Below, piece by piece: positions 3,523-22,466 of a DNA stretch of 50,594 bases. Position numbers and translations under genes: made by a program. Origin of the DNA: Candidatus Cloacimonadota bacterium (lineage in GTDB: Bacteria; Cloacimonadota; Cloacimonadia; Cloacimonadales; Cloacimonadaceae); contig JAHDQK010000026.1 in NCBI GenBank assembly GCA_018433885.1, positions 1-50,594 on the forward strand. Reading direction: 5' to 3'. The notes below the pieces were generated by a model. It worked only from the letters and a program-made list of their open reading frames with translations, was not told where the DNA came from and did not search any database. The stretch's first letter is position 1. Every line of letters starts with the position of its first letter.

Positions 3523-3523
3523 T

Positions 3524-4132: not shown

Positions 4133-4145
4133 AGAGGGAGATCTA

Positions 4146-7100: not shown

Positions 7101-7604
7101 GCAGCCCTCCAAACCCTCATGGCGGATGAGAAAGTGTATATTGGAGGTAAAATCAAAGATGCCAAAGCCAAACTTGGGCTCCTGGAAGACCAGCTCAAAC
7201 GCATCCTCAAACAAGCAAAAGAGAAGGCTCTGGCTGAGATAAAACCCCTTTATGAATCACTTAAAACCAAAGCTGTGGGTAAGCAGGAGATTTTGAATAA
7301 GATCGAAACCGCTTATCAGAAAGTATCGACATCGATCTCACAAGAGACTATGATCCCGATGATCGTTTCACATTTGGCGGATTTCGCGGATCGCACCTAT
7401 TTGGATTTGCTGAATGAAATAGAACTTGTGCATACACCTGAAAGTGGAGGCAAACCCAGATCCAAGATCATTAATGCCAAGAATCTAAGGCCCCGGTTTG
7501 CTAAAGAGATTATTGAGTCCGATTCTGATCTGGAGGAGTATCTCAAATCCCTAAAAGAGGCCTTTCTGAACGAACTTGGCAAAGGCAACAGGATTAGGGT
7601 TTAG
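4146..7604 (+). CDS. brxC: BREX ATPase BrxC
   Basis: A 1152-residue P-loop ATPase. The Walker A motif GFFGTGKSH is at about residues 64-72 and the Walker B-like block IFCVDEIGQ near residue 255. The long helical C-terminal half (900-1150) fits the ~1200-residue BrxC/PglY family. BrxC is thought to power the BREX complex with PglX and PglZ. ATG 4146 (MQIKELFQKD) is chosen because GAGGGAG lies just upstream; the 24 codons of open frame before it overlap brxB. The stop codon TAG is the first part of a TTAGGTG repeat array. Confidence 0.9.
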   Translation: MQIKELFQKDIERKIAGVIMADDDRNIQTEIDEYVLTHEIKSQLDKLLESYINNDSLPGVWISGFFGTGKSHLLKMISLLLEGWHHDDFHIADVMMQKCDDDKILKANIGKVKSIPAQSILFNIDQKADTGTPKGTDAILNVFVKVFNDACGYYGKHAYIAKFERDLDREGLLEAFKTEYQKISGKDWKVGRAMATMEDHNVSKAYAKIKNAPEGSFNSLLSNLSYNYKVSIEDFTNDVAEYIAKKGKDFRLIFCVDEIGQFIADNTKLMLNLQTISESFYSVCKGKAWIMVTSQSDLETVVGQLKQSQSTEYGRITARFPIKLNLGGANVEEVIQKRLLLKKKEHETELLKLYHKHENSMRTLFHFTDGARTYRTFRDSEDFIGSYPFIPYQSFLLQSAFISLSEHDAFPGKYTSVGARSLLSIFQFVLIQVANEGVGGIAGFDLMYDGLKPMVKPHLLHTIQTAEASITDAFALRILKTLFILKYVKDFKATIRNIRILLLEDLQTDPETLNEKIKQALDLLERETYIERNGEEYSYLTSDEKTIEQQIKNTQIEDSAISDELDKLMFGYNDFLKAKIRHIESDQDFAYSRKVDDRTYGKSQELTIQLITPNYQYYDNEIQLKANSMGKAELLIVLPADNRFWEDLALYKKTDKYCSQQAMTSISDSTRLIVAAKQQQNTSRMRAIKKRFNELISGSKLILRGDLFNARSSEVVAKVNEAAQALISRSYPNLAMIKTVKDQDFGTVILNPQLNLDELVELNEAERDMLGTINLAQGNTQKLSLSTLLIKYSKNPYGWSESACLYILARLISLGKAEVFAQGRVLEKAELVRELRQKGKYASLIIQPQAEISQADFLHLKKTAEELMGHPATSKDAKDLIKELKEALKTEADILDAYLLKKDVYRFLESLEDAIKEYREISAKPVSWFFNEFKVQEAAILRQKHDLIDPIKRFMESPQADIYNSIFAFLRDNKPNLSSLDQEAVAALQTLMADEKVYIGGKIKDAKAKLGLLEDQLKRILKQAKEKALAEIKPLYESLKTKAVGKQEILNKIETAYQKVSTSISQETMIPMIVSHLADFADRTYLDLLNEIELVHTPESGGKPRSKIINAKNLRPRFAKEIIESDSDLEEYLKSLKEAFLNELGKGNRIRV

Positions 7605-7640
7605 GTGTTAGGTTTTAGGTGTTAGGTGTTAGGTGTTAGG
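7591..7640 (+). repeat. TTAGGTG heptamer array at the brxC/DUF1016 junction
   Basis: Five or so TTAGGTG-like units (one variant TTAGGTTT) run from the last brxC codons to the AGGAG ribosome site of the next gene. The brxC stop codon TAG lies in the first full unit, and the last unit contributes part of the following Shine-Dalgarno (TTAGGAG). Confidence 0.9.
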
Positions 7641-7647
7641 AGATATG

Positions 7648-8799
7648 ATGAGTGATAGAGATAGAGCCAAGCTGGAGTTCTCGGGTTTGGTCGAGAAGAT
7701 TCAGAGTATACACCATGAGTTAAAAAGATCAGCACTAAGGTCAGTAAATACTATGCTCACCATACGCAACTGGCTGATAGGATACTATATTACTAACTAT
7801 GAAATGCAAGGCGCAGATCGCGCTCAGTATGGTGAGCGACTTATGGATTCGATCTCCCTCGAACTACAGCGTCTCAAAGTCCCTCGCTCTGCCAAACGCG
7901 AATTACAGAGGTTCTGCCAGTTTTATCGCACTTATCCGCTGATTGTGCGTTCACTGAACGCAGAATTGGGCAAAGTGGTCTGGGGTGATATCAAGCCAGA
8001 GATCACTGTAACTGCGGACTCTTCAGTGTTTTCACCAAAAGTGCGTTCAGTGAACGCACAATTGGCAAAACTCTCAAGCCGGCTATTAAACAACCTGTCA
8101 TATGCTCACTTTGAAATTCTGATAACCATAGAGGATGAGCTCAAGCGCCGATTCTACGAGTTGGAATGCCTTAAAGCCAATTGGTCGGTCCGCGAACTTC
8201 GCAGGCAAGTCTATTCCCTCTTCTATGAGAGAACTGCTCTGTCCAGGGATAAGGATAAGCTGGCTGAGCTTGCAAATGCAGAATCTGAAAGCTTTGACCC
8301 CGTTTTAACGATCCGAGATCCCTATGTGTTTGAGTTTTTGGGAGTAAAATCCGATAGTTTGCTAAGTGAATCCGATCTTGAAGATCAGCTTCTGGATAAC
8401 TTACAGGAATTCCTCCTGGAATTGGGACACGGCTTTTGTTTTGAAGCACGTCAGAAGCGAATTCTGATCGGAGACACTCAGTTCTACATCGATCTGGTCT
8501 TTTACCACCGGGTCCTCAAATGCCATGTCTTGATCGAACTCAAGGTGGCTGAATTCAACCATGAAAACATTGGCCAGCTCAATACTTACGTTAGCTGGTA
8601 CCGGACAAATGAAATGCGAGAGGGAGACAACCCTCCCGTCGGCATACTGCTCTGCACAGGCAAGGACAGCACCCTTGTGGAATATGCCCTGGCAGGCATG
8701 GACAACAATCTCTTCGTCTCCAAATACCTCCTGGAACTGCCTTCCAAAGAAGAAATGCAAGCCTTCCTCGAGAAATCTCTGAAACAGGAACTACTATGA
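7648..8799 (+). CDS. DUF1016 (YhcG-type) PD-(D/E)xK nuclease-like protein
   Basis: A 383-residue protein with an N-terminal helical DUF1016_N domain (about 10-170) and a C-terminal PD-(D/E)xK domain (about 230-350). The nuclease core shows FYIDLVFYH, then HVLIELKV with the D...ExK spacing, and IGQLNTYVSWY behind it. Such proteins occur near restriction-modification and BREX genes; a DNA-cleaving role is inferred. The AGGAG at the edge of the repeat array is 5 nt from ATG 7648, so this start is preferred over 7645 or GTG 7633. The gene's TGA overlaps the pglX ATG (ATGA). The linker at ~100-142 carries two palindromic repeats encoding VRS(L/V)NA. Confidence 0.85.
   Translation: MSDRDRAKLEFSGLVEKIQSIHHELKRSALRSVNTMLTIRNWLIGYYITNYEMQGADRAQYGERLMDSISLELQRLKVPRSAKRELQRFCQFYRTYPLIVRSLNAELGKVVWGDIKPEITVTADSSVFSPKVRSVNAQLAKLSSRLLNNLSYAHFEILITIEDELKRRFYELECLKANWSVRELRRQVYSLFYERTALSRDKDKLAELANAESESFDPVLTIRDPYVFEFLGVKSDSLLSESDLEDQLLDNLQEFLLELGHGFCFEARQKRILIGDTQFYIDLVFYHRVLKCHVLIELKVAEFNHENIGQLNTYVSWYRTNEMREGDNPPVGILLCTGKDSTLVEYALAGMDNNLFVSKYLLELPSKEEMQAFLEKSLKQELL
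7945..8069 (+). repeat. two palindromic direct repeats inside the DUF1016 gene
   Basis: A near-palindrome GTGCGTTCACTGAACGCA (7945-7962) with trailing GAATTGGGCAAA recurs at 8041-8069 as GTGCGTTCAGTGAACGCAC plus AATTGGCAAA. Each has ~9-bp arms. Both are read in the same frame (VRSLNAELGK, VRSVNAQLAK) and lie in the linker between the two halves of the N-terminal domain. Confidence 0.75.
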
Positions 8800-11700
8800 T
8801 CGATAAACAGACCAATACACGCCTGAAACGCTTTGCTCAAGATGCCCGTCGGTACCTGATCGACCAGGTGAATACCAAACTCAGCGAAGTGCTAGCCCCC
8901 GATAGCGATGCCGCCACTTATGAAAAGACCAAACCGCTTTATAACGCTTTGCTTAAAGAAGTATTAGGTGTTAGAGATGGTGAAAGCGGCGAAGCCGCCC
9001 TAAAACCTAAAACCTCACACCTAACCCCTAACACCTATAACCTAACACCTATTGCAGAGCGCGTCGCTTACACCTGGTTCAACCGCCTGACGGCCCTCCG
9101 CTACATGGACTTGAAACATTTCAATCCGGTTGGTATCATCAGTCCCCAATCTGGAGATACCCTTCCCCAGATCCTGGCTGAGGCAAAACTTGGTATGATA
9201 GATAGCTCCTTGATAGACCCAAGTGATCGGGATAGAGCCCTGGGCTTGCTCTCCGGAACGATTGCCAGTACTTATCACAAGGGTGACGCTCAGAGCGAAG
9301 CCTATCGTATATTGCTGCTGAGTGCCTGCAACCACATCGGCAAATCCCTTCCCTTCCTCTTCAAGCCAATCAAGGACTGGATGGAACTGCTGCTGCCGGA
9401 CGACCTTCTGGGTGAGCACGGTATCCTGGCTATGATCCGCGAAGTGATGACAGAAGATGCCTGTCAGGACGTGGAAGTGATTGGCTGGCTCTATCAGTAC
9501 TACATCTCGGAGAAGAAGGACGAAGTCTTCGCCAATGTCAAGAAAGGCAAGAAAGTGCAGAGCGCTGAGATTCCTGCTGTCACCCAACTCTTTACCCCCC
9601 ACTGGATCGTAAAATACATGGTGCAAAACTCATTGGGCAGGTTGTGGCTGGACAGTCATCCCCAATCGTCTTTGAAAGCCAAGATGGAGTATTACGTAGC
9701 GCAGGATGCCAATCCTGCGGAACCTGTAATCTCGCAGGATCAGAATCCTGCGCTACAGGTCAAATCACCTGAGGAGATCAAGTTTTGCGATCCCTGCTGC
9801 GGTAGCGGACATATCCTCACCTATGCCTTTGAACTGCTCCATGAGATATATAGTGAAGAGGGCTATGATCCCATCGATATCCCCAGGCTGATCATAAGTA
9901 AAAACCTCTATGGCATCGAGATCGATGAGCGTGCTTCCGAACTTGCCGCCTTTGCCCTGTCCATGAAAGCCAGAGAGAAAGACAGGCAGTGGTTCTCCCG
10001 GGCGATAGACCCCAATATCTGCGGTTTGGAGAATATCAGCTTTACAAATGACGAGATCGAGCCCTATCTGGACAAATGCGGACGTGACATATTTACCCTC
10101 AACTTTGAACGCATGCTCTCACAATTCGAACACGCCGATACCTACGGTTCGCTTATTGTTCCTCATGAGCAGGATATCGAAGGCATTCGTGAGCTGCTGA
10201 ATGCCAAAGACTTCAGCGGGGATGTATTCCTTGCCCCCACTCACAACAAGGTGCTTAAGCTGATCGAACAGGCAGATTACCTCAGCACCAAATATCAGGT
10301 GGTGGTTACCAATCCACCCTATCTAGGAACTTCAGGATTTGGTAAGGGAAAGGAAGATTGGTTCAAGAGCAATTATCCTAATAGCCGTACTGACTTCTTT
10401 GCTATGTTTATGGAACGATGCCTGAGCTTATCTGTTAAGCAAGGCTACATTGCCATGATCAATATGCAAAGCTGGATGTTCTTAAGTTCGTACGAAAAAC
10501 TAAGGAAGCATCTGGCAAAGAACTATGAGTTTGTGACTATGGCACATCTGGGACCTCGTGCCTTTGACTCAATCGGAGGCGAAGTGGTATCAACAACTTC
10601 TTTTGTGATGCAGAACAAAGCGCCTGGCTCACAGCCGGGAGCATACTTTAGATTACTCGAGGGCAGGAGTGAAGATGAGAAAAGCAAGCTATACCTGCAA
10701 GCCATCGCTAATCCCGACTGTGGCTGGTTCTTCCGTTGTAAAACTTCAGAATTCAACAAAATCCCGGGAGCACCGATTGCTTTTTGGGTGACAGAATCAG
10801 TCTTGTCGTTGTACAGCAACGAACCATTAGTCAACTCGGTAGTGTTTAAAGAAGGAATAACGACTGCAAATAACGATTTATTTCTACGACAATGGTACGA
10901 GATAGATAAGGAAAAAACCGCTTTTCAGGGTCAAGACATTAGTAGTAATATTTACTGGGTACCCTATAACAAAGGAGGATCGTTTAGAAAGTGGTATGGA
11001 AACAGAGATTTTATCATCAATTGGTGCGATAATGGTGGTCTAATAAAAAAATACCCAGGATCGTCACTCAGAAATTTGTCTTTTCAAAGAAAGTTCGGAG
11101 GCACGTTTTCAGCCTTAAGCAGCAGCAAGTTCTCCGCGAGGTTTTCTGGCTATGGTTTCGCATTTGACAGCAAGGGTACTATGTTCTTTAGTGAAGATAT
11201 TGAGATAGTTATTGCATATCTGAACTCAAACCTTTTTTCGCATCTCGTGGCTGTGTCTTGCCCTACTCTCGATTTCAGATTTGGTGTTATTGAGAAGCTA
11301 CCCTATCTCAAATCAAACAAGACTGACATCAAAGACTTGATCAAGCTGTCAACAATAGATTGGGACTCCTACGAAACCTCATGGGATTTTCAGCACTTAC
11401 CCTTGTTAGGGGTTAGGTGTCAGGGATTAGGTGTTAGGGAGTGCTATGTGAAACTGAGAGAGCAGTGGATAGAAGACACTCTCAAGATGCAGGAGCTGGA
11501 AGAGGAGAATAACCGGATATTCATAGAAGCTTATGGTTTGGAGGATGAGATCAAGCCGGAGGTACCGCTGAGGGAGATTACTCTTACATGCAATCCCTAT
11601 TACCGTTACGGTGTAAACCCCGAGGTGTTAGGTGTTAGAGCTTTAGGTGTTAGGGAGTTTCCGCTTAACGCTGAATTGGAGAAGCGGCTTTTGGCAGACA

Positions 11701-12497
11701 CCATGAAGGAGCTGATCTCCTATGCGGTTGGCTGTATGTTTGGCAGGTACTCTCTGGATAAACCTGGATTGATATTGGCGAATCAGGGTGAGGGGCTGGA
11801 CGACTACGTCGTCAAGGTGTTAGGTGTTAGCGGGTTAGGTGTTAGGGGTCAGGGGTTAGGTGTTAGGGATAGCGGAAGCGGCGAAGCCGCCCTAAAACCT
11901 AATACCCAAAACCTAAAACCTTCTTTCATGCCTGATAAAGACAATGTAATCCCCATCCTGGAGGGAGAGTGGTTCGTTGATGATATAGTCAGCCGCTTTA
12001 CTGAGTTCCTGAAAGTAGCATTTGGAACTGAGAAATACTCTGAAAACATCAGCTTTATTGAGGAAGCCCTGGGTAAAGATCTGCGGGTATACTTCCTGAA
12101 AGACTTTTATAATGACCACGTGAAGCGCTATAAAAAACGTCCCATCTACTGGCTCTTCAGCAGCCCTAAGGGGAGTTTCAATGCTCTGATCTACATGCAC
12201 CGCTATACTCCGGATACGGTCTCGATCCTGCTTAATGGCTACTTGAGAGAGTATATCCACAAACTCCGGGCTAAGGTCACGCAATTGGAACATCAGTTGG
12301 GATCAGGCAGCCTCAGCGAACGTGAGAAGATGCTCACCCGCAAGGAGATTGAGCGCCTGAAAGACGTGATCATTGAACTGGAAGCCTGGGAGAGCAAGGT
12401 AATCCTGCCCCTGGCGGAGAAACGCCTGGAGATCGATCTTGATGATGGCGTAAAGGTTAATTACGCTAAGTTTGGCGAAGCATTGAAGAGGTTTTAG
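8796..12497 (+). CDS. pglX: BREX adenine-specific DNA methyltransferase PglX
   Basis: A 1233-residue N6-adenine methyltransferase, the modification and specificity enzyme of BREX. The SAM-binding motif I (FCDPCCGSGH) is at about residue 329 and the catalytic NPPY motif (VVTNPPYLGTSG) near 506; the C-terminal half holds the predicted target-recognition and helical domains. Its ATG overlaps the upstream nuclease stop. The coding sequence carries at least five in-frame repeat insertions: residues ~56-87, ~301-321, ~870-882, ~943-954 and ~1007-1042. They encode low-complexity LGVR and LKPNT runs, and none disrupts the frame. The TAG stop lies in a TTAGGTG array. Confidence 0.92.
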   Translation: MIDKQTNTRLKRFAQDARRYLIDQVNTKLSEVLAPDSDAATYEKTKPLYNALLKEVLGVRDGESGEAALKPKTSHLTPNTYNLTPIAERVAYTWFNRLTALRYMDLKHFNPVGIISPQSGDTLPQILAEAKLGMIDSSLIDPSDRDRALGLLSGTIASTYHKGDAQSEAYRILLLSACNHIGKSLPFLFKPIKDWMELLLPDDLLGEHGILAMIREVMTEDACQDVEVIGWLYQYYISEKKDEVFANVKKGKKVQSAEIPAVTQLFTPHWIVKYMVQNSLGRLWLDSHPQSSLKAKMEYYVAQDANPAEPVISQDQNPALQVKSPEEIKFCDPCCGSGHILTYAFELLHEIYSEEGYDPIDIPRLIISKNLYGIEIDERASELAAFALSMKAREKDRQWFSRAIDPNICGLENISFTNDEIEPYLDKCGRDIFTLNFERMLSQFEHADTYGSLIVPHEQDIEGIRELLNAKDFSGDVFLAPTHNKVLKLIEQADYLSTKYQVVVTNPPYLGTSGFGKGKEDWFKSNYPNSRTDFFAMFMERCLSLSVKQGYIAMINMQSWMFLSSYEKLRKHLAKNYEFVTMAHLGPRAFDSIGGEVVSTTSFVMQNKAPGSQPGAYFRLLEGRSEDEKSKLYLQAIANPDCGWFFRCKTSEFNKIPGAPIAFWVTESVLSLYSNEPLVNSVVFKEGITTANNDLFLRQWYEIDKEKTAFQGQDISSNIYWVPYNKGGSFRKWYGNRDFIINWCDNGGLIKKYPGSSLRNLSFQRKFGGTFSALSSSKFSARFSGYGFAFDSKGTMFFSEDIEIVIAYLNSNLFSHLVAVSCPTLDFRFGVIEKLPYLKSNKTDIKDLIKLSTIDWDSYETSWDFQHLPLLGVRCQGLGVRECYVKLREQWIEDTLKMQELEEENNRIFIEAYGLEDEIKPEVPLREITLTCNPYYRYGVNPEVLGVRALGVREFPLNAELEKRLLADTMKELISYAVGCMFGRYSLDKPGLILANQGEGLDDYVVKVLGVSGLGVRGQGLGVRDSGSGEAALKPNTQNLKPSFMPDKDNVIPILEGEWFVDDIVSRFTEFLKVAFGTEKYSENISFIEEALGKDLRVYFLKDFYNDHVKRYKKRPIYWLFSSPKGSFNALIYMHRYTPDTVSILLNGYLREYIHKLRAKVTQLEHQLGSGSLSEREKMLTRKEIERLKDVIIELEAWESKVILPLAEKRLEIDLDDGVKVNYAKFGEALKRF
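8963..9057 (+). repeat. composite palindromic element A inside pglX
   Basis: Forward TTAGGTG units (8963-8974) lead to a hairpin core GCGGCGAAGCCGC (about 8986-8998), followed by reverse-complement units (CCTAAAACC, CACACCTAACCCC, CCTAACACC) to 9057. It is read in frame as LGVRDGESGEAALKPKT and a run of NxxLTP. Element B at 11816-11920 has the same architecture and frame. Confidence 0.85.
9696..9756 (+). repeat. double-hairpin palindromic element inside pglX
   Basis: An outer 12-bp inverted repeat, GTAGCGCAGGAT (9696-9707) with ATCCTGCGCTAC (9745-9756), encloses two hairpins, CGCAGGAT-GCCA-ATCCTGCG (9700-9719) and CGCAGGAT-CAGA-ATCCTGCG (9733-9752). It is read through in frame as VAQDANPAEPVISQDQNPA, just upstream of methyltransferase motif I. 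Confidence 0.85.
11406..11439 (+). repeat. TTAGGTG array inside pglX
   Basis: Five consecutive 7-bp units: TTAGGGG, TTAGGTG, TCAGGGA, TTAGGTG, TTAGGG. They are read in frame as LGVRCQGLGVR in the C-terminal half of PglX. Confidence 0.85.
11624..11655 (+). repeat. short TTAGGTG array inside pglX
   Basis: About four degenerate 7-bp units (TTAGGTG, TTAGAGC, a TTTAGGTG variant, TTAGGG) read as VLGVRALGVRE. It lies ~190 bp upstream of the larger element at 11816. Confidence 0.8.
11816..11920 (+). repeat. composite palindromic element B inside pglX
   Basis: Seven or more forward heptamers (GGTGTTAG and GGGTTAG variants) run from 11816 to 11868. They are followed by GCGGCGAAGCCGC (about 11879-11891) and reverse-complement units CCTAAAACC...CCTAAAACC to 11920. 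The encoded peptide GVRDSGSGEAALKPNTQNL closely matches the peptide of element A, in the same frame. Confidence 0.85.
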
Positions 12498-12553
12498 GTG
12501 TTAGGTGTTAGGGGTTAGGGGTTAGGTGTTAGGTGTTAGGTGTTAGGTGTTAG
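12493..12553 (+). repeat. TTAGGTG array at the pglX 3' end
   Basis: About eight tandem heptamers (TTAGGTG with TTAGGGG variants). The pglX TAG stop is inside the first unit and the array ends immediately before the AGAAGGAG ribosome site of the S23-like gene. Confidence 0.9.
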
Positions 12554-12565
12554 AAGGAGAAAGAG

Positions 12566-12952
12566 ATGAGTAAGATTTTGAGTTATAAAGATCTGATAGT
12601 ATGGCAAAAGGGAATGACCCTTGCTGAGCAGGTATACCTGATAACTGCCGGATACCCCAAATCTGAGCTGTATTCTCTTACCGATCAGATGCGCAGGGCA
12701 GCGGTATCCATAGTATCTAATATTGCTGAAGGAAAAGGCAGGGAATCAAAACAGGAGTACTTGCACTTTCTTGCTATATCACAAGGTTCACTCACCGAAC
12801 TGGAAACCCAAATACTACTGTCAATCAGGCTTAGATATCTCAGTGAGATAGATGCTGAGACTCCATTATCTCTATGTGACGAAATTGGACGAATGCTTAA
12901 CACCATGCGCACCAAGCTAAAAGCTGCCTCCCAGCTAACACCTAACCCCTAA
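12566..12952 (+). CDS. four-helix-bundle protein, S23/23S rRNA intervening-sequence family
   Basis: A 128-residue helical protein with the family's hallmark pattern: YKDLIVWQKGM near the start, LTDQMRRAAVSIVSNIAEG in the second helix, and SLTELETQI in the third. Members are found inside 23S rRNA intervening sequences, beside diversity-generating retroelements (Avd), and as scattered solo genes; their function is unclear, although Avd binds nucleic acid. AGGAG lies 6 nt before ATG. The gene is not part of canonical BREX and is flanked on both sides by heptamer repeats; its last codons (SQLTPNP) and stop codon are made of the reverse-complement repeat, as if it came in as a cassette. Confidence 0.85.
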   Translation: MSKILSYKDLIVWQKGMTLAEQVYLITAGYPKSELYSLTDQMRRAAVSIVSNIAEGKGRESKQEYLHFLAISQGSLTELETQILLSIRLRYLSEIDAETPLSLCDEIGRMLNTMRTKLKAASQLTPNP

Positions 12953-12965
12953 AACCTAAAAGCTA
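12934..12965 (-). repeat. inverted TTAGGTG array at the S23-like gene 3' end
   Basis: Reverse-complement units (CTAACACCTAACCCC, TAAAACC) cover the final codons and TAA stop of the four-helix-bundle gene. The orientation is opposite to the array that precedes the gene, so the gene is bracketed by inverted copies. Confidence 0.85.
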
Positions 12966-12975
12966 AGAGAGAAAA

Positions 12976-15447
12976 ATGAACAAGATTGAGCAGATAATCA
13001 CCAAGCAGTTCGATAAACACCGCATTCTGTTCTGGTATGATCCAGAGCAAGAGTTTAGGGATGACTATTGGGCATTGCAGCTACCGGTCGGATGTGAAAA
13101 GATCGAAGTGGTGCATGATGAGTTCGGAGTGAAGCACCGCATCTTGATTCTGGAACCTGAAAGTAAGTTCCTGCTCTACTTTGCCTACGCGGAGCCAAGC
13201 CATCAGGAGAACTGGCTACTGGACCTGCAACTTTCCGAGGGGATGGTTCACATAGACCAGGGATCGTTATGGCTGCAGGAATTGGGTTTGGATCGCAACC
13301 GTTTCCTGGAGATTACCAGGGATCACAAGCACTTCTTCAAAGCTGGCAAGCGGTTGGAATTACTCAGGGGACTTGTGGTTAAGGATCAGGAGTCACACAC
13401 TTCCCTACGCTTGAAGATGCTGGCGGTGTGCGCTGCTAGTGAAGCCCGCTGGGAAGAGCTGCTGCTGGCGCTCCTGGTAGAATTTGCCCATGCTAAAGAT
13501 GATAAGTTCAACCTGATCTCCAAATGCGGATTGGCTGCGTTTCTCTGGGAGCAGATGGTGATAAACTTCGGCTACAAAAGCCAAGAGCCAAACTTCAAGA
13601 GCTTGGTGATAGAGCTATTCGAAAGTTCAGCTCAGATCAAGGAACACAAGATCAACCGGGATGGCATCCACGTATTGAAGCTGTTGAAGGACATGAGCCA
13701 GCACCGGGAAGCCTTTGAAAAACTCAGTGCCAAATGCTCTGAATGGATAGACGCTCCCGCCTGGCTGGAGAAGCAATCTTTGGAAATCCTGACTGAGATA
13801 GATCAGTTTGAATACGCGGAGCGCTTGATCATAAGAAGCCTGGTTGATGATTTGGAAAACAGCCAGATCAGCGATAAGGAACTGCAAAGCATCATACAGA
13901 ACCGCCGGGGAAGTCATTGGTATTCTCGCTATGAGACCGAGTATCAATGCTTGGGATACGCCTCAAACTACCTTGATAGCTCATCCTCAATAAAAGTGGA
14001 GTTACACAGTCTGGAAAGCGGTTTCAAAGCCTACAGCGGCGGCTTGTACGAGATAGATCAGTATTATCGTAAATTCTGCCTGCACTACTCACGTTTAAAA
14101 GAAAACAAATTCTTTGAAAAGATATCCCGCAAGATCGAGGATCACTATGGCAATAACTTTATCTTCAAGCTGGGGACATCCTGGTCGGCATTGATGCAGC
14201 AGCAGGAGAAATGGCATAGTCATAATACACAGTTGAAATTCTGGAAGAGCCAGATTGTGCCATACATCCAGCAGAGCAAGAAGATCTTTGTGATTATCTC
14301 CGATGCCCTTCGTTATGAAGTTGCTGCCGAACTGATGAGCCTGATCCGCAAGGAAGACCGCTTTGAAGCGGAGCTGAGTGCTATGGCTGGGACCTTACCG
14401 AGTATCACATCTGTAGGAATGGCAGCACTTTTACCACATGAGACAATCAGCTTCGATACTAAGCATAATGTGCTGGTAGATGGACTCAGTAGCAGCGGCA
14501 CTGAGAACCGGATGAAAATCATGAACAAGTATCATCCGGATAGATGTCTTGCTCTGAGGGCAGAGGATGTCCTGAAGATGCCCACAGACCAAGCCAGAAC
14601 CCTGTATCGGGATTATGACGTGATCTATGTCTATCACGATGCCATCGATATAGTCGGAGACAAGAAAGGATCTGAAGTCAGGGTCTTTGAAGCCGTGGAG
14701 ACAGCTCTATCTGATCTGCTGACTCTGGTACGCAAGATGAGTTCTGCCAATGCCAACAACATCATCATCACCGCTGATCATGGCTTCTTGTACCAAAGAG
14801 ACGAGCTGAGCGAGGATCAATTCCTGGATGATAAGATCAAACTGGGCGAGAATGACCTGAAACTCAGACGATGCATCATTGGCAGCAAGATTGAGGACAA
14901 TCCCAATCTGCTGATCTATAAAGCGGAAGATCTGGGCCTCGGTGGAGATGTGCAAATTGCCATACCCTATGCCGGTCAGAGGATGAGACAAGCTGGATCG
15001 GGAAGCCGATATGTGCATGGCGGAGCGTCTCTGCAGGAGATCTGCCTGCCCCTCTTGCAAGTAAGTAAGAAGCGTGTGAGCGATGTGGCGCAGGTAGATG
15101 TGGAGATCAGGCGCAGCGGAGGTAAGACGATCAGTTCCGGAGTTTTGGTCTTCAGGCTGTATCAGGTGCAACCTGTGAGTGAGAAAATGCAGGGCAGGAC
15201 TCTGCGAGTGGCTTTATATGATAGTGCCGGAGAAGCCATATCCGAGCTTAAAACTATGATCTTCGATTCCGGGGAGATCAGTGATAAAGCCCGCGATATT
15301 GAATGCAGACTAACGCTTACTACTAAGGCAGATAAAGCGGGAGACGCCATCCTCAGACTGGATGAACTGATCCCCGGGACAGATAAGTACAAAGAGTATC
15401 GTAGCGAGACTTACACGATCTCGCGGATGTTTGAGATTGATTTTTAG
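12976..15447 (+). CDS. pglZ: BREX alkaline-phosphatase-like protein PglZ
   Basis: An 823-residue protein of the PglZ family. The alkaline-phosphatase superfamily domain occupies about residues 430-690: the metal-binding block VIISDALRYEVAAEL is near 438 and IITADHGFLYQRD near 598. The N-terminal ~400 residues are helical, and a beta-rich domain closes the protein. PglZ is essential for BREX and contacts PglX; the phosphatase-type metal site suggests hydrolysis of a phosphoester, but its substrate is not established. The ribosome site is weak (AAGAGAG). The TAG stop lies in another heptamer array. Confidence 0.92.
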   Translation: MNKIEQIITKQFDKHRILFWYDPEQEFRDDYWALQLPVGCEKIEVVHDEFGVKHRILILEPESKFLLYFAYAEPSHQENWLLDLQLSEGMVHIDQGSLWLQELGLDRNRFLEITRDHKHFFKAGKRLELLRGLVVKDQESHTSLRLKMLAVCAASEARWEELLLALLVEFAHAKDDKFNLISKCGLAAFLWEQMVINFGYKSQEPNFKSLVIELFESSAQIKEHKINRDGIHVLKLLKDMSQHREAFEKLSAKCSEWIDAPAWLEKQSLEILTEIDQFEYAERLIIRSLVDDLENSQISDKELQSIIQNRRGSHWYSRYETEYQCLGYASNYLDSSSSIKVELHSLESGFKAYSGGLYEIDQYYRKFCLHYSRLKENKFFEKISRKIEDHYGNNFIFKLGTSWSALMQQQEKWHSHNTQLKFWKSQIVPYIQQSKKIFVIISDALRYEVAAELMSLIRKEDRFEAELSAMAGTLPSITSVGMAALLPHETISFDTKHNVLVDGLSSSGTENRMKIMNKYHPDRCLALRAEDVLKMPTDQARTLYRDYDVIYVYHDAIDIVGDKKGSEVRVFEAVETALSDLLTLVRKMSSANANNIIITADHGFLYQRDELSEDQFLDDKIKLGENDLKLRRCIIGSKIEDNPNLLIYKAEDLGLGGDVQIAIPYAGQRMRQAGSGSRYVHGGASLQEICLPLLQVSKKRVSDVAQVDVEIRRSGGKTISSGVLVFRLYQVQPVSEKMQGRTLRVALYDSAGEAISELKTMIFDSGEISDKARDIECRLTLTTKADKAGDAILRLDELIPGTDKYKEYRSETYTISRMFEIDF

Positions 15448-15489
15448 GTGTTAGGTTTTAGGTGTTAGGTTTTAGGTGTTAGGTTTTAG
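15443..15489 (+). repeat. TTAGGTG array at the pglZ/brxL junction
   Basis: About six units alternating TTAGGTG and TTTTAGGT run from the pglZ TAG stop to the AGAAGGAG ribosome site of brxL. The layout (stop in first unit, ribosome site after last) is the same as at 7601 and 12493. Confidence 0.9.
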
Positions 15490-15500
15490 AAGGAGAGATG

Positions 15501-17576
15501 ATGAATAGATTGGATGAGAAGATCAATGAGCATTTTCAGGGCTTGGTAGTCCGGAAAGACCTGGTCAAAGCCGTAAAGGGCAATGCCATCGTACCTACCT
15601 ATGTGCTGGAATACCTATTGGGGCAGTATTGTGCCACTTCTGATGAAGCGGAGATTCAGGCTGGAATCGAGACAGTTAAAAGCATCCTGGAGAAGCATTA
15701 CGTGCACAGACGGGATGCCGAACTAACCAAGTCCAACGTGCGTGAATCACGGATCAATAAGGTGATAGACAAGATCGCCGTGACCCTCAACGAGAAGAAG
15801 GACTGCTATCAAGCAAGCTTTTCCAATATGGGGATATCTAAAGTTGTGGTGAGTTCCGAGATCGTGAAGAACCATCCCAAGCTTTTGGTGAGCGGAGTGT
15901 GGTGCATCGCTGAGCTTGAATACAGCTATACCGAGGATAGAGACAGCAGTCCCTGGCTACTGAACTCTATCAAGCCGATCCAGATGTCCCGCTTCGATAT
16001 GGATAGCTTTCTACAGAAACGCTCTGAGTTTACCAGTGATGAGTGGATAGATCTATTGATCCAAAGTATCGGCTTCAATCCGGAGTTCATGAGCAGACGC
16101 TTGAAACTGATGCAGCTAACCAGGCTGGTACCATATTGCGAAAGGAACTACAACCTGATCGAGTTGGGTCCCAAAGGAACCGGTAAGTCGCATATTTATT
16201 CTGAGTTCTCACCCCATGGTATATTGATTTCTGGAGGTGAGGTCTCAGTCCCCAAGCTCTTTGTGAACAATTCCAACGGCAGAATAGGATTGGTGGGATT
16301 CTGGGATGTGGTGGCCTTTGATGAGTTTGCAGGACGCAAGAAGAAAGCAGATAAGGCCTTAGTAGATATCATGAAGAACTACATGGCTAATAAGACTTTC
16401 TCCCGTGGTATTGAAACCTTGGGTGCAGAAGCTTCCATGACCTTTGTGGGTAATACTCAGCATAACGTGGCCTACATGCTGAAGCACTCTGATCTGTTTA
16501 GTGAACTGCCGGAGCAATACTATGATTCCGCCTATCTGGACAGGTTGCATGGTTACCTGCCGGGCTGGGAAGTGCCTATCATCCGTGGTGAGATGTTCTC
16601 TTCCGGTTATGGCTTTGTGGTGGATTATCTGGCAGAGATCCTGCGTGCCTTTCGCAATCAAGATTTTTCTGCCCTTTATCGTGAACATTTCGAACTGGTT
16701 TCAGACATTTCCACTCGTGACCGGGATGGGGTGCAGAAGACCTTCTCTGGCTTGATGAAGGTGATCTATCCCAATCAGGTGGCATCAAAGGACGAGATCA
16801 CGGAACTGCTTGAGTACGCAATGGAGAACCGCAAGCGGGTGAAAGACCAATTGATGCGTATAGACAAGACCTATGAAGCCGTGCGCTTCGCTTATACAGA
16901 CAAGGAAGAGAAACTGCATTTCGTGAAGACTGCCGAGGAGATTCAGTATCCATCCTACTACTATGGCAAGGAAGGCCCCACAGAAGACGATAAAGAGCCC
17001 CAGGGAGAGCAAACAAGCGAAACTGGTGGTAGCGAAATTCTTAGCGGTAATAATGAAAGTGACAAAGAAGATCTAAAACCTAACACCCAAAACCTAACAC
17101 CTCAAAACATCGCCATCCAGGATAACCAGACCGGGATCTCCTATCGCAGGCTCTTTGCCAGGTATCTGAAGGGCTCCAAGAGGATCGAGATCAAAGACCC
17201 CTTTATCGGCTCCTTCTACCAATGCCGCAATCTGATGGAATTCATGGAGGTGGTGGCTGCCATAAAGAGCGATGCCGATGAGGTTGCAGTCCATCTGATA
17301 ACCAAACACAGCGAGTATCAGGACTCCAATCAAGAGGAGTATTTCCGCCAGATAGAAAGCTCCTGCAGCAAGGTTGGAATCACTTTCACCTACGAAATCG
17401 ATGATACCATCCATGATCGCTACATCAAAAGCGATAATGGCTGGAAGATCGTATTGGGTAGGGGCCTGGATATTTTTAACAAATTCGACGACAAAGACGC
17501 CTTTGCGATTGAGAACAGGAATCAAAGATACCGAAAGTGCCGAGCGTTTGAAGTGACGTATGTGAGGTTATCATAA
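15501..17576 (+). CDS. brxL: BREX Lon-like ATPase BrxL
   Basis: A 691-residue AAA+ protein of the BrxL family, the type 1 BREX signature, in the usual last position. The Walker A motif LGPKGTGKSH is near residue 222, with the Walker B block VVAFDEFAG near 275. A C-terminal Lon-protease-like domain follows a low-complexity linker (about 490-530) that contains a heptamer-repeat insertion (LKPNTQNLTP). AGGAG is 5 nt from ATG 15501, which is therefore preferred to ATG 15498. BrxL forms ring-shaped DNA-binding assemblies in studied systems. The TAA stop overlaps the RecQ start as TAATG. Confidence 0.92.
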   Translation: MNRLDEKINEHFQGLVVRKDLVKAVKGNAIVPTYVLEYLLGQYCATSDEAEIQAGIETVKSILEKHYVHRRDAELTKSNVRESRINKVIDKIAVTLNEKKDCYQASFSNMGISKVVVSSEIVKNHPKLLVSGVWCIAELEYSYTEDRDSSPWLLNSIKPIQMSRFDMDSFLQKRSEFTSDEWIDLLIQSIGFNPEFMSRRLKLMQLTRLVPYCERNYNLIELGPKGTGKSHIYSEFSPHGILISGGEVSVPKLFVNNSNGRIGLVGFWDVVAFDEFAGRKKKADKALVDIMKNYMANKTFSRGIETLGAEASMTFVGNTQHNVAYMLKHSDLFSELPEQYYDSAYLDRLHGYLPGWEVPIIRGEMFSSGYGFVVDYLAEILRAFRNQDFSALYREHFELVSDISTRDRDGVQKTFSGLMKVIYPNQVASKDEITELLEYAMENRKRVKDQLMRIDKTYEAVRFAYTDKEEKLHFVKTAEEIQYPSYYYGKEGPTEDDKEPQGEQTSETGGSEILSGNNESDKEDLKPNTQNLTPQNIAIQDNQTGISYRRLFARYLKGSKRIEIKDPFIGSFYQCRNLMEFMEVVAAIKSDADEVAVHLITKHSEYQDSNQEEYFRQIESSCSKVGITFTYEIDDTIHDRYIKSDNGWKIVLGRGLDIFNKFDDKDAFAIENRNQRYRKCRAFEVTYVRLS
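17073..17102 (-). repeat. inverted heptamer repeat inside brxL
   Basis: CTAAAACCTAACACC followed by CAAAACCTAACACC is read in frame as LKPNTQNLTP in the linker before the C-terminal domain. It corresponds to the right half of the composite elements in pglX and uses the same reading frame. Confidence 0.8.
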
Positions 17577-19684
17577 TGAATACGGAGCAGATTCGTGATA
17601 GGGCTAGGCAGTTAATCAAACAGATGTTTGGCACATCTGCGGAATTCCGTCCTGGACAACTTGAGGCTATTGAGCATATCCTTAATAAAAGTGGCAGGCT
17701 TCTGATCGTACAGAAAACTGGCTGGGGTAAGAGTGTAGTCTATTTTATCATGACCAAGATAAATCGAGAACTTGGTAAAGGCCCCACATTAATCATATCA
17801 CCGCTCTTGGCACTGATGCGTAATCAGATCTATAACGCCAATAAACTTGGTTTGAGAGCCGCTACCATCAATTCATCAAACACCAAGGAGTGGGAGCAGG
17901 TTCAAAATGGTCTTAAAAATAACTTATATGACCTCCTGCTAATATCACCAGAACGTTTGTCCAGTCAGAACTTTCTACCAGAGATCGTTCCAGCAATAGG
18001 CAGGATTGGTGCGTTTGTTGTTGATGAAGTTCATTGTATATCGGATTGGGGACATGATTTTAGGCCGGATTATCGGCGTATCAAGAGTATCATTAGCAAT
18101 GTATTCACCGGTATTCCTATTGTTGGCACAACAGCCACGGCCAATAACAGAGTTGTAAAAGATTTGGAAGATCAACTTGGATCAGGTTTTACAATTATGA
18201 GGGGTAAGCTTAACCGGTCGGGATTGAAACTTCAGAACATCGTTTTACCAACTATAGCCGAAAGGCTTGCCTGGCTCGCTGATACCATACCTAAACTAAA
18301 AGGGTCTGGGATTGTTTACTGCCTAACCCGGGGAGACGTATTTAGGGTTTCGAACTGGTTGAAACAATGTGGTATAGATTGCCATCATTACTGGGGTGGG
18401 GATGTGCTTGATGACAACAAACAGGATCTTAGCCCAATTCTTGAGCAAAAACTGCTCGATAACAAAATCAAGGTTCTGGTAGCCACCTCAGCTCTAGGGA
18501 TGGGATATGACAAGCCAGATCTGAATTTCGTTATCCATTACCAGGCTCCAGGCTCAGCAATAGCATACTATCAGCAAGTTGGCAGAGCTGGCCGTGAATT
18601 GCCTGAATCTTACGGTGTATTGCTGCATGGTAGTGAGGAGGACGAGATCCTGGATTACTTCATGCGGGAAGCCTTCCCCACCGAAGATGAGGAAAGAGCA
18701 GTTTTGGGTTTTCTTAACACTTTAACCTCGGCAACACAGGGGCAAATCTGCAGAAAGCTAAACATGAGATCATCCCGGCTGGAAAAAGCATTGAAACACC
18801 TGTTAATCGATGGTTATATTGAAAAAAACAAATCTAATTACAGCAGGACGGTGAAGGCATGGACATACGATCAACAGAGGAAGGATCAAGTACAAGCTAT
18901 CCGCATTCGGGAAAGAGAGAGGATGAAAACTTATATCTCTCATGATGGATGTTTAATGAGATTCATTGCAAATGAATTAGACGACCCAACCACTCAGGAT
19001 TGCGGTATTTGTGTGAACTGCAGACAAGGGTTGCTACCAACAAAACCTTCACAAGACACAGTGCAGAAGGCTCTTGAATTTCTGCATCAGGATTATGTAA
19101 TAATAGATCCTCGCAAGAGGTGGCCAAATGGGCTGGAATTGAGTGTGAATTTGCAGAGCAAACCAACAATTGTGATCCCCAAAGATGAAGTTATTGAACA
19201 AGGAAGGGCATTGGGATATTTGGAAAATGCTGGATGGGGAAGTGTTATCAGAAGATGCATCAAGGACAATTCAACTGTGCCCGAGGATGTTATTAACGCA
19301 GCATATTATCTACTAACCAAACAATGGGCTCCAAGTCCCTTTCCTGAATGGATTACTTTTATCCCATCAGTCAATAGATCAAGAGTCATTGTTGATTTTG
19401 CTAAACGACTCGGAGCAAAACTCAGGATCCCGGTCTTGGATGTCATAGCAATTTCAAATTCGTCGAAAATACCCATCTACAAATATGAAAACAGCCAACA
19501 GCAGGTGGAAAACAGTATTAACAACTGGACAGTAAAGTCTCCTATCCGCCAGTCCCCTGTGCTGTTAATAGATGATTTTGTTAATACAAGATGGACATTA
19601 ACAATTGTGGGCAGAATGCTTCGGATCAATGGAACTGACAAAGTATATCCGTTCACGCTAGGGAGTGTAAAAGATACCAAATGA
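17576..19684 (+). CDS. RecQ-family helicase fused to a ComF-like phosphoribosyltransferase domain
   Basis: A 702-residue protein. Residues ~1-340 are a RecQ-type SF2 helicase: FRPGQLEAI (Q-motif region), Walker A-like QKTGWGKS (46-53), DEVH box (150-153), TTATA, motif V ATSALGMGYDKPD and motif VI QQVGRAGRE. A four-cysteine cluster (DGC, then DCGICVNC) is the RecQ zinc site. The last ~150 residues resemble ComF-type phosphoribosyltransferases: IPS...R....AKRLG, LRIPVLDVI, and the PRPP-binding loop LLIDDFVNTRWT (663-674). The start overlaps brxL (TAATG), so it is co-translated with BREX. It is a DNA-unwinding enzyme by family; the role of the transferase domain is unknown. Confidence 0.85.
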   Translation: MNTEQIRDRARQLIKQMFGTSAEFRPGQLEAIEHILNKSGRLLIVQKTGWGKSVVYFIMTKINRELGKGPTLIISPLLALMRNQIYNANKLGLRAATINSSNTKEWEQVQNGLKNNLYDLLLISPERLSSQNFLPEIVPAIGRIGAFVVDEVHCISDWGHDFRPDYRRIKSIISNVFTGIPIVGTTATANNRVVKDLEDQLGSGFTIMRGKLNRSGLKLQNIVLPTIAERLAWLADTIPKLKGSGIVYCLTRGDVFRVSNWLKQCGIDCHHYWGGDVLDDNKQDLSPILEQKLLDNKIKVLVATSALGMGYDKPDLNFVIHYQAPGSAIAYYQQVGRAGRELPESYGVLLHGSEEDEILDYFMREAFPTEDEERAVLGFLNTLTSATQGQICRKLNMRSSRLEKALKHLLIDGYIEKNKSNYSRTVKAWTYDQQRKDQVQAIRIRERERMKTYISHDGCLMRFIANELDDPTTQDCGICVNCRQGLLPTKPSQDTVQKALEFLHQDYVIIDPRKRWPNGLELSVNLQSKPTIVIPKDEVIEQGRALGYLENAGWGSVIRRCIKDNSTVPEDVINAAYYLLTKQWAPSPFPEWITFIPSVNRSRVIVDFAKRLGAKLRIPVLDVIAISNSSKIPIYKYENSQQQVENSINNWTVKSPIRQSPVLLIDDFVNTRWTLTIVGRMLRINGTDKVYPFTLGSVKDTK

Positions 19685-21081
19685 TAATGAATAATGACGC
19701 ACAGGTAATATTTCTCCTAACTTACAAACATTCCAGATCGGATTTGTTGCCCTTAACTGCCCAGGAATATTCAAAGATTGCCTACAAGATCAGAGAAATG
19801 GGATTACCTGGGCCTCAAGCCCTTTTCGGCATGAATGTTGAAGAGATAGCTAAGACAATTGCTGATGATAATGATATGGCTCAGAGAATAAGAAATCTGC
19901 TTGATTTTGGAGGGACAGCCTCGCTTTATACAGAGCGTATTTTCAATCAAGGTATAAAGTTGATCACGAGGACTGATCAGCTTTATCCAGTAAAATTCAA
20001 AATCGTGTTGAGAGACAACACTCCGCCTTATCTATGCTCTGTTGGTAACCCGGAGTTGCTAACCGAATTTCAGAAACCCTACATCGTATCTGCGGATGAT
20101 GTTACCAAGCTCTCTTCTATGAAGATTCCAGAAAATCATGATAATCTGATCTGTCTGATTTCGTCGATAAGATACTGCAAACAGCTTGCTGAAAGGACGA
20201 AATCTTGGGGGAATGTCATCATTATCAGCTCAATCGGTCTCAACAAACTGATTCGGCAACCAGCCATTCGGGAAGCAATACAGAATGGTAAAACTTTTAT
20301 TATGTCCACCAATGTAGTTGATGCCGAAGAGCCAAACTACCATTATCTGTACTTGTATCTAATGGCTTTTACGATATCAACTTCCAGCACGGTAATCCAC
20401 CAACAACACAATGCTAGGGTAACGCAAGTGTTAGATCAAATCCGAAGTTATGAGCATCTGAAAGCAAGACTAGTTTTGGACAAGGAACCAACTATTACTG
20501 GCGGTATCGCAGTAGTCAAAGTAGCCCAGTACGAAAATGAGCAGCCTTCTGATCCCATTGGTGAGATATCTGATTCTCGGAAAGCAGAAATCTACACCAT
20601 TGGCCACAGTAATCATGACGTAACTAAATTGTTGGAATTGCTTGAACTTAATAAAATCGAAATCCTCGTGGATATTCGTTCAGTACCAAGCAGCAAGTAC
20701 GCTACTCAATTTAATCAACAGCAACTGAAACTAAGTCTGAAAGATATTGGCATCAAGTATAAATACATGGGTTCTTCTTTGGGAGGTCGCCCAGAAGACA
20801 AGAGTGTCCTAAGTTCAGATGGTAAAATCATTCGTGAGTACATAGAACAAAAGGACTGGTATCAGATAGGAATCCAGGAGTTGATCAACTTGGCACAGAC
20901 TGGCAAAAAAGTGGCTTTGATGTGTAGCGAAGAGGACCCTACTCATTGCCATAGAGGTTATATTGTGAGCAATACGCTAATTGATAAAGGAATCCAAGTC
21001 TTACACATAAGGGCAAACGGAGAAGCCCAGGACCTGGGACATATAAGTTCACCTACTGATCAGATGGAGATACCGTTATGA
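19681..21081 (+). CDS. DprA-like/DUF488 fusion protein
   Basis: A 466-residue two-domain protein. The N-terminal ~290 residues resemble DprA (DNA-processing, ssDNA-binding, Rossmann-like): LPLTAQEYSKIA near the start, then GIKLITRTDQLYPVKFK and TPPYLCSVGNPELL. However, the usual GSR.....G nucleotide-binding loop after GN is not recognisable. Residues ~303-450 are a DUF488 domain: YTIGHSNHD, VDIRSVPSSKYA, then CSEEDPTHCHR near 415-425. The ATG overlaps the RecQ stop (ATGA). The association with a helicase-transferase suggests handling of foreign or single-stranded DNA; this is inference. Confidence 0.75.
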   Translation: MIMNNDAQVIFLLTYKHSRSDLLPLTAQEYSKIAYKIREMGLPGPQALFGMNVEEIAKTIADDNDMAQRIRNLLDFGGTASLYTERIFNQGIKLITRTDQLYPVKFKIVLRDNTPPYLCSVGNPELLTEFQKPYIVSADDVTKLSSMKIPENHDNLICLISSIRYCKQLAERTKSWGNVIIISSIGLNKLIRQPAIREAIQNGKTFIMSTNVVDAEEPNYHYLYLYLMAFTISTSSTVIHQQHNARVTQVLDQIRSYEHLKARLVLDKEPTITGGIAVVKVAQYENEQPSDPIGEISDSRKAEIYTIGHSNHDVTKLLELLELNKIEILVDIRSVPSSKYATQFNQQQLKLSLKDIGIKYKYMGSSLGGRPEDKSVLSSDGKIIREYIEQKDWYQIGIQELINLAQTGKKVALMCSEEDPTHCHRGYIVSNTLIDKGIQVLHIRANGEAQDLGHISSPTDQMEIPL

Positions 21082-21521
21082 AAAAGCAGATAACCCTTTA
21101 CACGATAGGGTTTGCCCAAAAGAAAGCTAAAGAGTTTTTCACTATTCTAAAAGACAATAACATCAAGACCCTGATAGATGTTCGGCAAAGCAATACAAAT
21201 ATATATGCTGGATTCACAATCAGAGACAACTTGCAGTATTTCCTGAAAGAGATTTGCGATATTGAATATGTAGAGAATAAGATCTTCGCTCCGACAAAAG
21301 AGCTTAGGGATCAGTATCACAAAGATGAAGATTGGCATAAATACGAAAATGGGTATTTGAATTTATTAGAAAGTCGTAACGCTATTGCATCTATAGTCAC
21401 TGACCAAATCGATTCAGCAGTTCTATTATGCTCAGAGCCTGTTGCTGAACATTGCCATCGCAGGCTGGCAGTAGAATACATTGGCAAGCATCTTAATAAT
21501 GTCAGGATAATTCACCTATGA
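21078..21521 (+). CDS. stand-alone DUF488 protein
   Basis: A 147-residue DUF488 protein: LYTIGFAQKKAKEFF, LIDVRQSNTN, and the cysteine/histidine block LLCSEPVAEHCHRR near the C-terminus. The same fold forms the C-terminal half of the preceding gene, but the two are clearly diverged in sequence (SNTNIYAGF here against VPSSKYATQF there). DUF488 proteins have an unproven, possibly nucleic-acid-related, function. The start overlaps the preceding stop (ATGA). Confidence 0.85.
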   Translation: MKKQITLYTIGFAQKKAKEFFTILKDNNIKTLIDVRQSNTNIYAGFTIRDNLQYFLKEICDIEYVENKIFAPTKELRDQYHKDEDWHKYENGYLNLLESRNAIASIVTDQIDSAVLLCSEPVAEHCHRRLAVEYIGKHLNNVRIIHL

Positions 21522-22165
21522 TTTGTCGAATCATTATAACTGGTATTACAAATATGAGTATAGGCTATATTTGCGTAAGCGGTTACGATATGGCTGCGAG
21601 GAAATACATTCGACCAATTATACCAGGTTCACATATCATGGAGTCGTTTCTTAGTTCTTTTAATACTCCGATTGATCTTGGTAGTACAATAGAACTAGAC
21701 TTGTCTTGTACTGAAACACTAGCTTCGCCACCGCACATAGAGGATAATCCCTTTGATACTTCAACTGTGAAAGTCTTGGATTCAATGTCCAGAGTCCAGT
21801 TTCGTAGCTTTATTGAGTCTATAGCAGACGAATCTGTTGAATCCATCTTTGGATATGAAATAGAGTTAATTAACGGGCAACCGATACTGCCAGAAGGATC
21901 AGGAACCAGATCATTAGGTGCTATAATGGGTCGAAAGTGTACTGTTTATTGTGATCACATGGGTAAGTCAAGATGCGATTTTGTTGACCAATCCGGTTAT
22001 GAGTATCGTCACTTACCAATTGTAGGAAGAGATGAATGGATCAAGAAACCAGGAAACTACCTAGATGTTCCGATAAGACTGAGTTTAACGAGGCTGTTTC
22101 AGAAAGACGATGATTCGGAGCCAGTGTACTGGATGCAGGTCAGCGGAGTTATTGCCGCACAATAA
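21518..22165 (+). CDS. probable dual-OB-domain protein, last gene of the module
   Basis: A 215-residue beta-rich protein. The N-terminus (CRIIITGITNMSIGYICVSG, then KYIRPIIPG) and the C-terminal LDVPIRLSLTRLF resemble dual-OB (DuOB) proteins that accompany conflict-system genes. Two OB barrels would give nucleic-acid binding. The start overlaps the DUF488 stop as ATGA, so all four genes of the module are translationally coupled. The family call is from pattern memory only; without it the protein is a conserved hypothetical. Confidence 0.5.
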   Translation: MICRIIITGITNMSIGYICVSGYDMAARKYIRPIIPGSHIMESFLSSFNTPIDLGSTIELDLSCTETLASPPHIEDNPFDTSTVKVLDSMSRVQFRSFIESIADESVESIFGYEIELINGQPILPEGSGTRSLGAIMGRKCTVYCDHMGKSRCDFVDQSGYEYRHLPIVGRDEWIKKPGNYLDVPIRLSLTRLFQKDDDSEPVYWMQVSGVIAAQ

Positions 22166-22316
22166 TATGGCTCCATCTTTGTTTATCCCTTCCATATTGT
22201 AAGCATGATATGCTTGCGTTTAAGTTTCGCATATCGGCCGCACATATAATTGACCGTACCCCATTTTATAGACCAGTTTGTAATGGTGATTCGCTTTGAC
22301 GTTATAGGCATCAATA
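22166..22316. other. spacer after the defence operon
   Basis: About 150 AT-rich bases. AAGCAT-GAT-ATGCTT (22201-22215) is a short hairpin that could end the operon transcript, but there is no good T-run after it. No gene is visible. Confidence 0.4.
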
Positions 22317-22466
22317 ATGGAAAAAGTAGGCATCCAAGTTAGAGCAAAGCAGCTAATAAAACAGATGTTTGGCACATCTGCGGAATTCCGTCCTGGTCAA
22401 CTCGAGGCTATTGAGCATATCCATTTAATAGCTGCCCAAGATAAAAACCCGGCAGAACCGGGTTAA
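22317..22466 (+). pseudogene. truncated 5' remnant of a second RecQ gene
   Basis: ATG 22317 opens a 49-codon frame whose residues ~10-35 (RAKQLIKQMFGTSAEFRPG and on to EHI) match the N-terminus of the RecQ gene at 17576 almost perfectly. DNA identity is very high from 22351 to 22422 with a few changes, three of them synonymous; the first eight codons differ (MEKVGIQV against MNTEQIRD). Homology stops abruptly at 22422. The remaining codons run into the terminator of the opposite gene. It is therefore the broken end of a diverged paralogue, not a functional gene. Confidence 0.8.
22441..22464 (-). terminator. rho-independent terminator of the 133-residue gene
   Basis: On the minus strand AACCCGG-TTCTG-CCGGGTT is followed by TTTAT. 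It lies 22 nt after the stop codon of the gene at 22486-22887. Confidence 0.75.

Follow-up and report, generated by a model that had tools for sequence, protein, structure and literature searches.

A Putative Hybrid of the PsyrTA Toxin-Antitoxin Pair and the Candidate Cassette PDC-M45 Behind a BREX Operon

Here, a module of four genes located directly behind brxL of a type I-like BREX operon is described. It appears to combine the PsyrTA (RqlHI) pair with the PDC-M45 cassette, each of which is known on its own, and this identity is well supported by the family matches and folds of the predicted proteins. The module was found in a stretch of 50,594 nucleotides from a Candidatus Cloacimonadota bacterium (contig JAHDQK010000026.1), which is called the window throughout.

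PsyrT and PsyrA are the same proteins as RqlH and RqlI. RqlH is toxic through its phosphoribosyltransferase (PRTase), and RqlI binds the PRTase region of RqlH and thereby restrains it (PMC4670107). For the ShosTA pair, a disturbed purine metabolism and an altered nucleotide pool have been reported as effects of ShosT, and DNA binding has been reported for ShosA (reviewed in PMC12593503). Furthermore, a DprA-PRTase pair guards against phage (PMC9122126). For PDC-M45, a candidate system of PADLOC, no description of the mechanism was found in the literature searched, and no paper in this search linked BREX or RecQ with DUF488. In a paper on rhodanese-phosphatase and DUF488 proteins, Burroughs and Aravind reportedly predict a role in conflict systems, namely the processing of DNA ends. 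The initial annotation of the window did not recognize the module as a named system. This has to be revised, since RecQ-PRTase plus DprA is the PsyrTA/RqlHI pair and DUF488-DUF488-DuOB is the PADLOC candidate PDC-M45.

Layout of the Module

The module lies on the forward strand (17576-22165) and comprises four intact open reading frames of 702, 466, 147, and 215 amino acids, each with one terminal stop. The TAA of brxL and the ATG of gene 1 have 1 nt in common at position 17576 (TAATG), and 4-nt ATGA overlaps join genes 1-4 at 19681, 21078, and 21518. The tight coupling to BREX by overlaps of 1-4 nt, which had been claimed before, is thus present at every joint. Likewise, the claim holds that none of the four genes belongs to the BREX core. 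The overlaps suggest that the module and the BREX operon form one transcription and translation unit.

Downstream of the module, a second 5′-end stub of psyrT (MEKVGIQVRAKQLIKQMFGTSAEFRPGQLEAIEHI...) is present on the forward strand (22316..22423), 4.7 kb behind the first copy and with 90% amino acid identity to the start of psyrT. On DNA level, positions 22340-22422 and 17599-17681 share 92% identity over 83 nt. The stub thus forms a direct repeat flanking the module and is perhaps a recombination scar.

The PsyrT and PsyrA Homologs

Gene 1 (17576..19684, forward strand) is a psyrT/rqlH homolog with a RecQ helicase (residues 1-490) and a C-terminal PRTase (residues ~541-702). It matches the PADLOC PsyrT model with 802.6 bits over residues 7-698 of 702, which is full length. 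Pfam detects the DEAD and Helicase_C domains, and the helicase motifs are intact, with Walker A KTGWGKS at residue 47, DEVHC at 150, and QQVGRAGR at 333. In addition, CGICVNC (residue 476) and the PRPP-loop LLIDDFVNTRWT (residue 663) are present. An AlphaFold model based on a 26-sequence alignment reached a pLDDT of 86.5 and a pTM of 0.86 and resembles the solved RecQ cores 4tmu/1oyw; rows from plasmid records were excluded from the alignments of both structure models of this study. The PRTase of the window copy gave no Pfam call and was found by homology over the full PADLOC PsyrT model, and a profile of the C-terminal region gave a weak match to HGXPRT and PRPP synthetase structures (E ~3e-4). 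The RecQ motifs with a PRPP-loop domain, read before from the sequence, are therefore confirmed, and the PRTase fold, which had been named as the point to check, is supported by the full-length PsyrT match, the C-terminal profile, and the AlphaFold model. An identity as DpdF was dropped, as the NCBIfam DpdF match of 133 bits stays far below the cut-off of 550.

Gene 2 (19681..21081, forward strand) encodes a fusion, as had been proposed. Its N-terminal part (residues 1-~270) has a PsyrA/ShosA/DprA fold devoid of the SLOG motifs, and a DUF488 domain of the PDC-M45B type follows at residues 303-451. The N-terminus matches the PADLOC PsyrA model with 85.8 bits (residues 1-210), and the C-terminus matches PDC-M45B with 147 bits (residues 302-451). 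The PsyrA domain shares just ~20% sequence identity with other PsyrAs, and Pfam barely registers its DprA part (E = 0.15). Modeled as residues 1-300 (pLDDT 78.8), it is closest to ShosA (8zva, E = 1.4e-7) and also resembles DprA (3uqz), the Foldseek probability for the ShosA/DprA fold being 1.00. The DUF488 domain scores 76 bits in Pfam and harbors the active-site-like block CSEEDPTHCHR at residue 415.

The PDC-M45 Genes

Gene 3 (21078..21521, forward strand) encodes a DUF488 protein of the PDC-M45C type (PADLOC, 164 bits; Pfam DUF488, 70 bits, and DUF488-N3a, 31 bits). A similar block, CSEPVAEHCHR, is found at residue 118, so that the active-site-like C..E/CHR residues are intact in genes 2 and 3. 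Gene 4 (21518..22165, forward strand) encodes a putative dual-OB (DuOB) protein, assigned to PDC-M45A by position. Its match to Pfam DuOB is weak (19.9 bits, E = 8.5e-4, below the cut-off of 27), covering model positions 13-210 of 210, and PADLOC, PDC-M45A included, gave no match; one PDC-M45A model run against the genome of the window was likewise negative. Here, the assignment follows from the place after M45C, where its relatives stand in many M45 cassettes. In these relatives the third gene is a strong match to both DuOB and PDC-M45A, and PDC-M45 can therefore be read as DuOB (A), DUF488 (B), and DUF488 (C). The earlier description of a second DUF488 and a beta-rich dual-OB protein is in line with this, firmly for gene 3 and by a weak DuOB match for gene 4. 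Profiles of DUF488-C and DuOB found no relative among solved structures.

The BREX Operon and the Slot Behind brxL

The type I-like BREX operon (2887..17576, forward strand; Pfam BrxA, BrxB, BrxC domains, BrxL and PglZ, and PADLOC) has the order brxA, brxB, brxC, PDC-S02/DUF1016 nuclease gene, pglX, four-helix-bundle gene, pglZ, and brxL. The DUF1016/YhcG nuclease gene (PDC-S02) after brxC lies at 7633-8799 and the 23S-IVP-like four-helix-bundle gene before pglZ at 12566-12952. Tandem 7-nt TTAGGTG/TTAGGTT repeats fill the intergenic gaps of the BREX operon and also occur inside pglX (forward strand: 7594-7635, 12494-12549, and 15444-15485; reverse strand: 9018-9031 and 12939-12959); none are present in the four-gene module.

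The nearest BREX operon in the family of the window has a BrxL 89% identical, and the DNA identity of 87% stops at the brxL stop codon; no module follows in the ~220 bases remaining on that contig. In another, related BREX operon (genome G011, locus L309, 528-7442), brxL ends with a TAATG joint as well, here followed by three genes that match no family and then by a Drt1a reverse transcriptase. Since the identity ends at the brxL stop and other genes are present there in G011, a slot of variable content seems to exist behind brxL. The module in turn looks like an insert, because its GC content is 41% compared to 46% for BREX.

PsyrTA pairs also occur elsewhere in BREX operons. On an Acinetobacter plasmid (L167) the order pglX-psyrT-psyrA-DUF262-pglZ places the pair amid the core genes, and in three further loci (L226, L231, L264) it stands after brxC and before pglX. 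On the tree, at least five separate gains by BREX operons were counted, the window included. Furthermore, type I R-M operons hold PsyrTA in five loci (L164, L214, L229, L237, L174). One of these, on an E. coli plasmid (L164, NZ_OX030731.1, 37352-40869), has PsyrTA between hsdS and hsdR, and its PsyrTA DNA is present in 53 of 5426 complete E. coli genomes. M45 for its part lies between pglX and pglZ-brxL in two BREX operons (L117 and L088). The recurrence of PsyrTA in BREX and type I R-M operons suggests a general scheme, the joint expression of a modification-based defense and a guard that kills the cell.

Distribution and a Second Merger

Within the 125 genomes of the window's phylum, PsyrT + PsyrA pairs as well as M45 cassettes are present, and they are joined in the window only. 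M45 is often found there divergent from an ordinary RecQ (L070, L071, L073, L075, L077, L079), a second M45-RecQ link. Relatives of M45C are widespread, with hundreds of matching stretches in bacteria and archaea, and the 80 relatives in GTDB genomes that are nearest to the M45C of the window are spread over archaea and many phyla of bacteria. One of these 80 loci (L126, 7303-12315, a Clostridia MAG) contains ShosTA, with the order ShosT, ShosA, HAD-like phosphatase, M45B, M45C, and a 617-aa M45A-containing protein; its ShosA keeps the motif SGLAKGCD and is unfused to DUF488.

PsyrT was sampled in four more taxa (369, 388, 392, and 395 genomes). A second merger was found in the Verrucomicrobia phylum (L236), where a PsyrT-DuOB fusion of 929 aa is followed by DUF488-B, DUF488-C, and PsyrA. 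This hybrid sits between two V-ATPase subunit genes and has no BREX nearby. Eleven genomes of the family to which its genome (G712) belongs have PsyrT-like matches, and the DuOB fusion is present in G712 alone. Scans of viral contigs revealed three M45 loci and two PsyrT loci, no hybrid, and gene 2 in none. Matches in phage records were restricted to the helicase region, none with 80% coverage. In tblastn searches of plasmids, gene 2 gave no match with 80% coverage and, among the matches listed, mostly the DUF488 half was hit; the L236 fusion retrieved PsyrT and never DuOB.

The two mergers thus make up 2 of the ~50 PsyrT loci examined, and PsyrT is nearby in 0 of the 80 nearest M45C relatives of the window. 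Rare co-occurrence had been named in the initial annotation as a finding that would speak against its proposal, and for the four-gene set it largely applies. Yet the second case is independent and shows the same changes, so that the set is not meaningless for being rare.

Independence of the Mergers and Shared Motif Changes

Concerning INDEPENDENCE and the shared changes, the PsyrTs of the window and of L236 are separate on a 51-row PsyrT tree. One clade of both was rejected (AU p = 0.0006), a value to be read with the long branch of the window in mind. Linkage to M45 appears as two separate changes on this tree, and the fusion partners differ (PsyrA-DUF488 and PsyrT-DuOB, respectively). The M45C tree had too few columns to place the window or L236.

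Comparison of the motifs, which is a post hoc one and rests on two linked cases, revealed that the SLOG motifs GSR and SGxAxGxD are lost in 2 of 2 M45-linked PsyrAs and kept in 50 of 50 unlinked ones (Fisher p = 0.0008). GGTWxG is likewise missing in both linked proteins. Within the PRPP loop DDxVN[S/T]xWT, both linked PsyrTs keep the DD and have an asparagine at the third acidic position, which is D in 39 and N in 0 of 44 other PsyrTs. In HGPRT, the aspartate at this position is the general base. The lysine of the QK motif is missing in both linked PRTases and in 5 of the 44 others. Overall, 10 of 34 conserved PRTase positions are changed in the window and 1 of 34 in L236. Judged by the loss of its SLOG motifs, the window module is a PsyrTA-derived variant and not a canonical PsyrTA. 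The changed D and the missing lysine could also indicate that its PRTase is impaired as a toxin and not fully functional.

Proposed Function and Alternative Readings

Our leading reading, held tentatively and at a little below an even chance, is that of a PsyrTA + PDC-M45 hybrid behind BREX, which acts as a second-line toxin-antitoxin guard with DUF488 and DuOB in the role of SLOG. Here, PsyrT would be both sensor and effector, with the helicase engaging DNA. Release of the PRTase would damage the nucleotide pool or the DNA of the cell and abort the infection; it is considered toxic because the PRTase is the established toxic part of RqlH and because ShosT reportedly alters the nucleotide pool. 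The PsyrA-derived scaffold may still bind and restrain the PRTase, and the OB-folds of DuOB together with the attached DUF488 enzymes would have taken over the handling of nucleic acids or nucleotides, which in ordinary PsyrA is the task of the SLOG pocket. We infer this takeover together with a place in the second line. Co-expression with BREX is suggested by the gene overlaps, and if it occurs, the module might fire upon failure or inhibition of BREX. The hybrid as such needs no BREX link, since L236 lies in a V-ATPase operon.

A decaying PsyrTA, in which the SLOG and PRPP-loop changes reflect loss of function and M45 is a separate working cassette fused by chance, seems rather unlikely to us. 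The motif losses, the 10 changed PRTase positions, the truncated psyrT stub adjoining the module, and the rarity of the merger would all fit. However, the four tightly overlapping frames and the helicase motifs are intact, L236 has lost these motifs too, with 33 of the 34 conserved positions of its PRTase retained, and two separate fusions with different partners have formed. That PsyrTA and M45 are independent accessory defenses, stacked in the variable slot behind brxL, would agree with both sets occurring mostly alone, with the other genes in this slot of G011, and with the unfused ShosTA beside M45 in L126; this is an unlikely account, as two distinct fusions join the sets and the loss of SLOG is confined to the merged cases.

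A module that works only with BREX, e.g., by processing BREX-modified or BREX-arrested DNA, would explain why both halves are repeatedly embedded in BREX operons. We regard it as quite improbable, because BREX is missing near the L236 hybrid and near most loci of PsyrTA and M45, and PsyrTA also occurs within type I R-M operons. Least probable of all is the competence-like set for ssDNA processing in defense that the initial annotation had in mind. A DprA fold, OB-folds, and a helicase would suit the handling of ssDNA, but RecQ is not ComFA: the Pfam, NCBIfam, and PADLOC matches listed contain no ComFA family, and the helicase is of the RecQ/PsyrT type. The DprA-type motifs are lost and the module is devoid of competence genes. 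Moreover, RecQ-PRTase with DprA is the toxin-antitoxin pair PsyrTA/RqlHI and the PRTase its toxic part (PMC4670107), which renders the competence comparison largely misleading. The further suggestion that the set might act on DNA exposed by BREX is a conjecture, and BREX is missing from the second merger.

Returning to the hybrid, the usual binding site of the antitoxin is lost in both mergers, and this suggests a new hybrid defense system. With slightly more reserve, we propose that at least two mergers have led to one composite machine, in which DUF488 and OB-folds replace the SLOG pocket of a DprA-like antitoxin. If true, the toxin would be controlled by a chemistry unlike that of any described PsyrTA or ShosTA. 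The fusion predicts that DUF488 and DuOB share a substrate or partner with the SLOG domain of PsyrA, and such a natural fusion to a partly understood toxin-antitoxin pair provides a handle on the widespread PDC-M45.

Comparison With Known Systems

The module directly follows the genes brxA-brxB-brxC-pglX-pglZ-brxL of a type I BREX system; its four genes do not belong to the BREX core, and within the sequence available for the closest BREX loci they do not follow brxL. With ShosTA it shares a PRTase toxin and a DprA-like antitoxin, and the N-terminus of gene 2 matches ShosA (8zva) best, whereas ShosT has no helicase, unlike the PsyrT of the window. The likeness to PDC-M45 comprises DUF488-B and DUF488-C, followed by a putative DuOB gene as in the common order B-C-A; in contrast, a fusion with PsyrA carries B, the putative A has diverged strongly and gives no PADLOC match, and psyrT lies upstream. 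PsyrTA/RqlHI is resembled in the full-length PsyrT, the PsyrA-type N-terminal fold, the order T before A, and the 4-nt overlap. The window differs from it by a PsyrA with a DUF488 attached and none of the SLOG motifs, by the D to N exchange in the PRPP loop, and by two extra genes.
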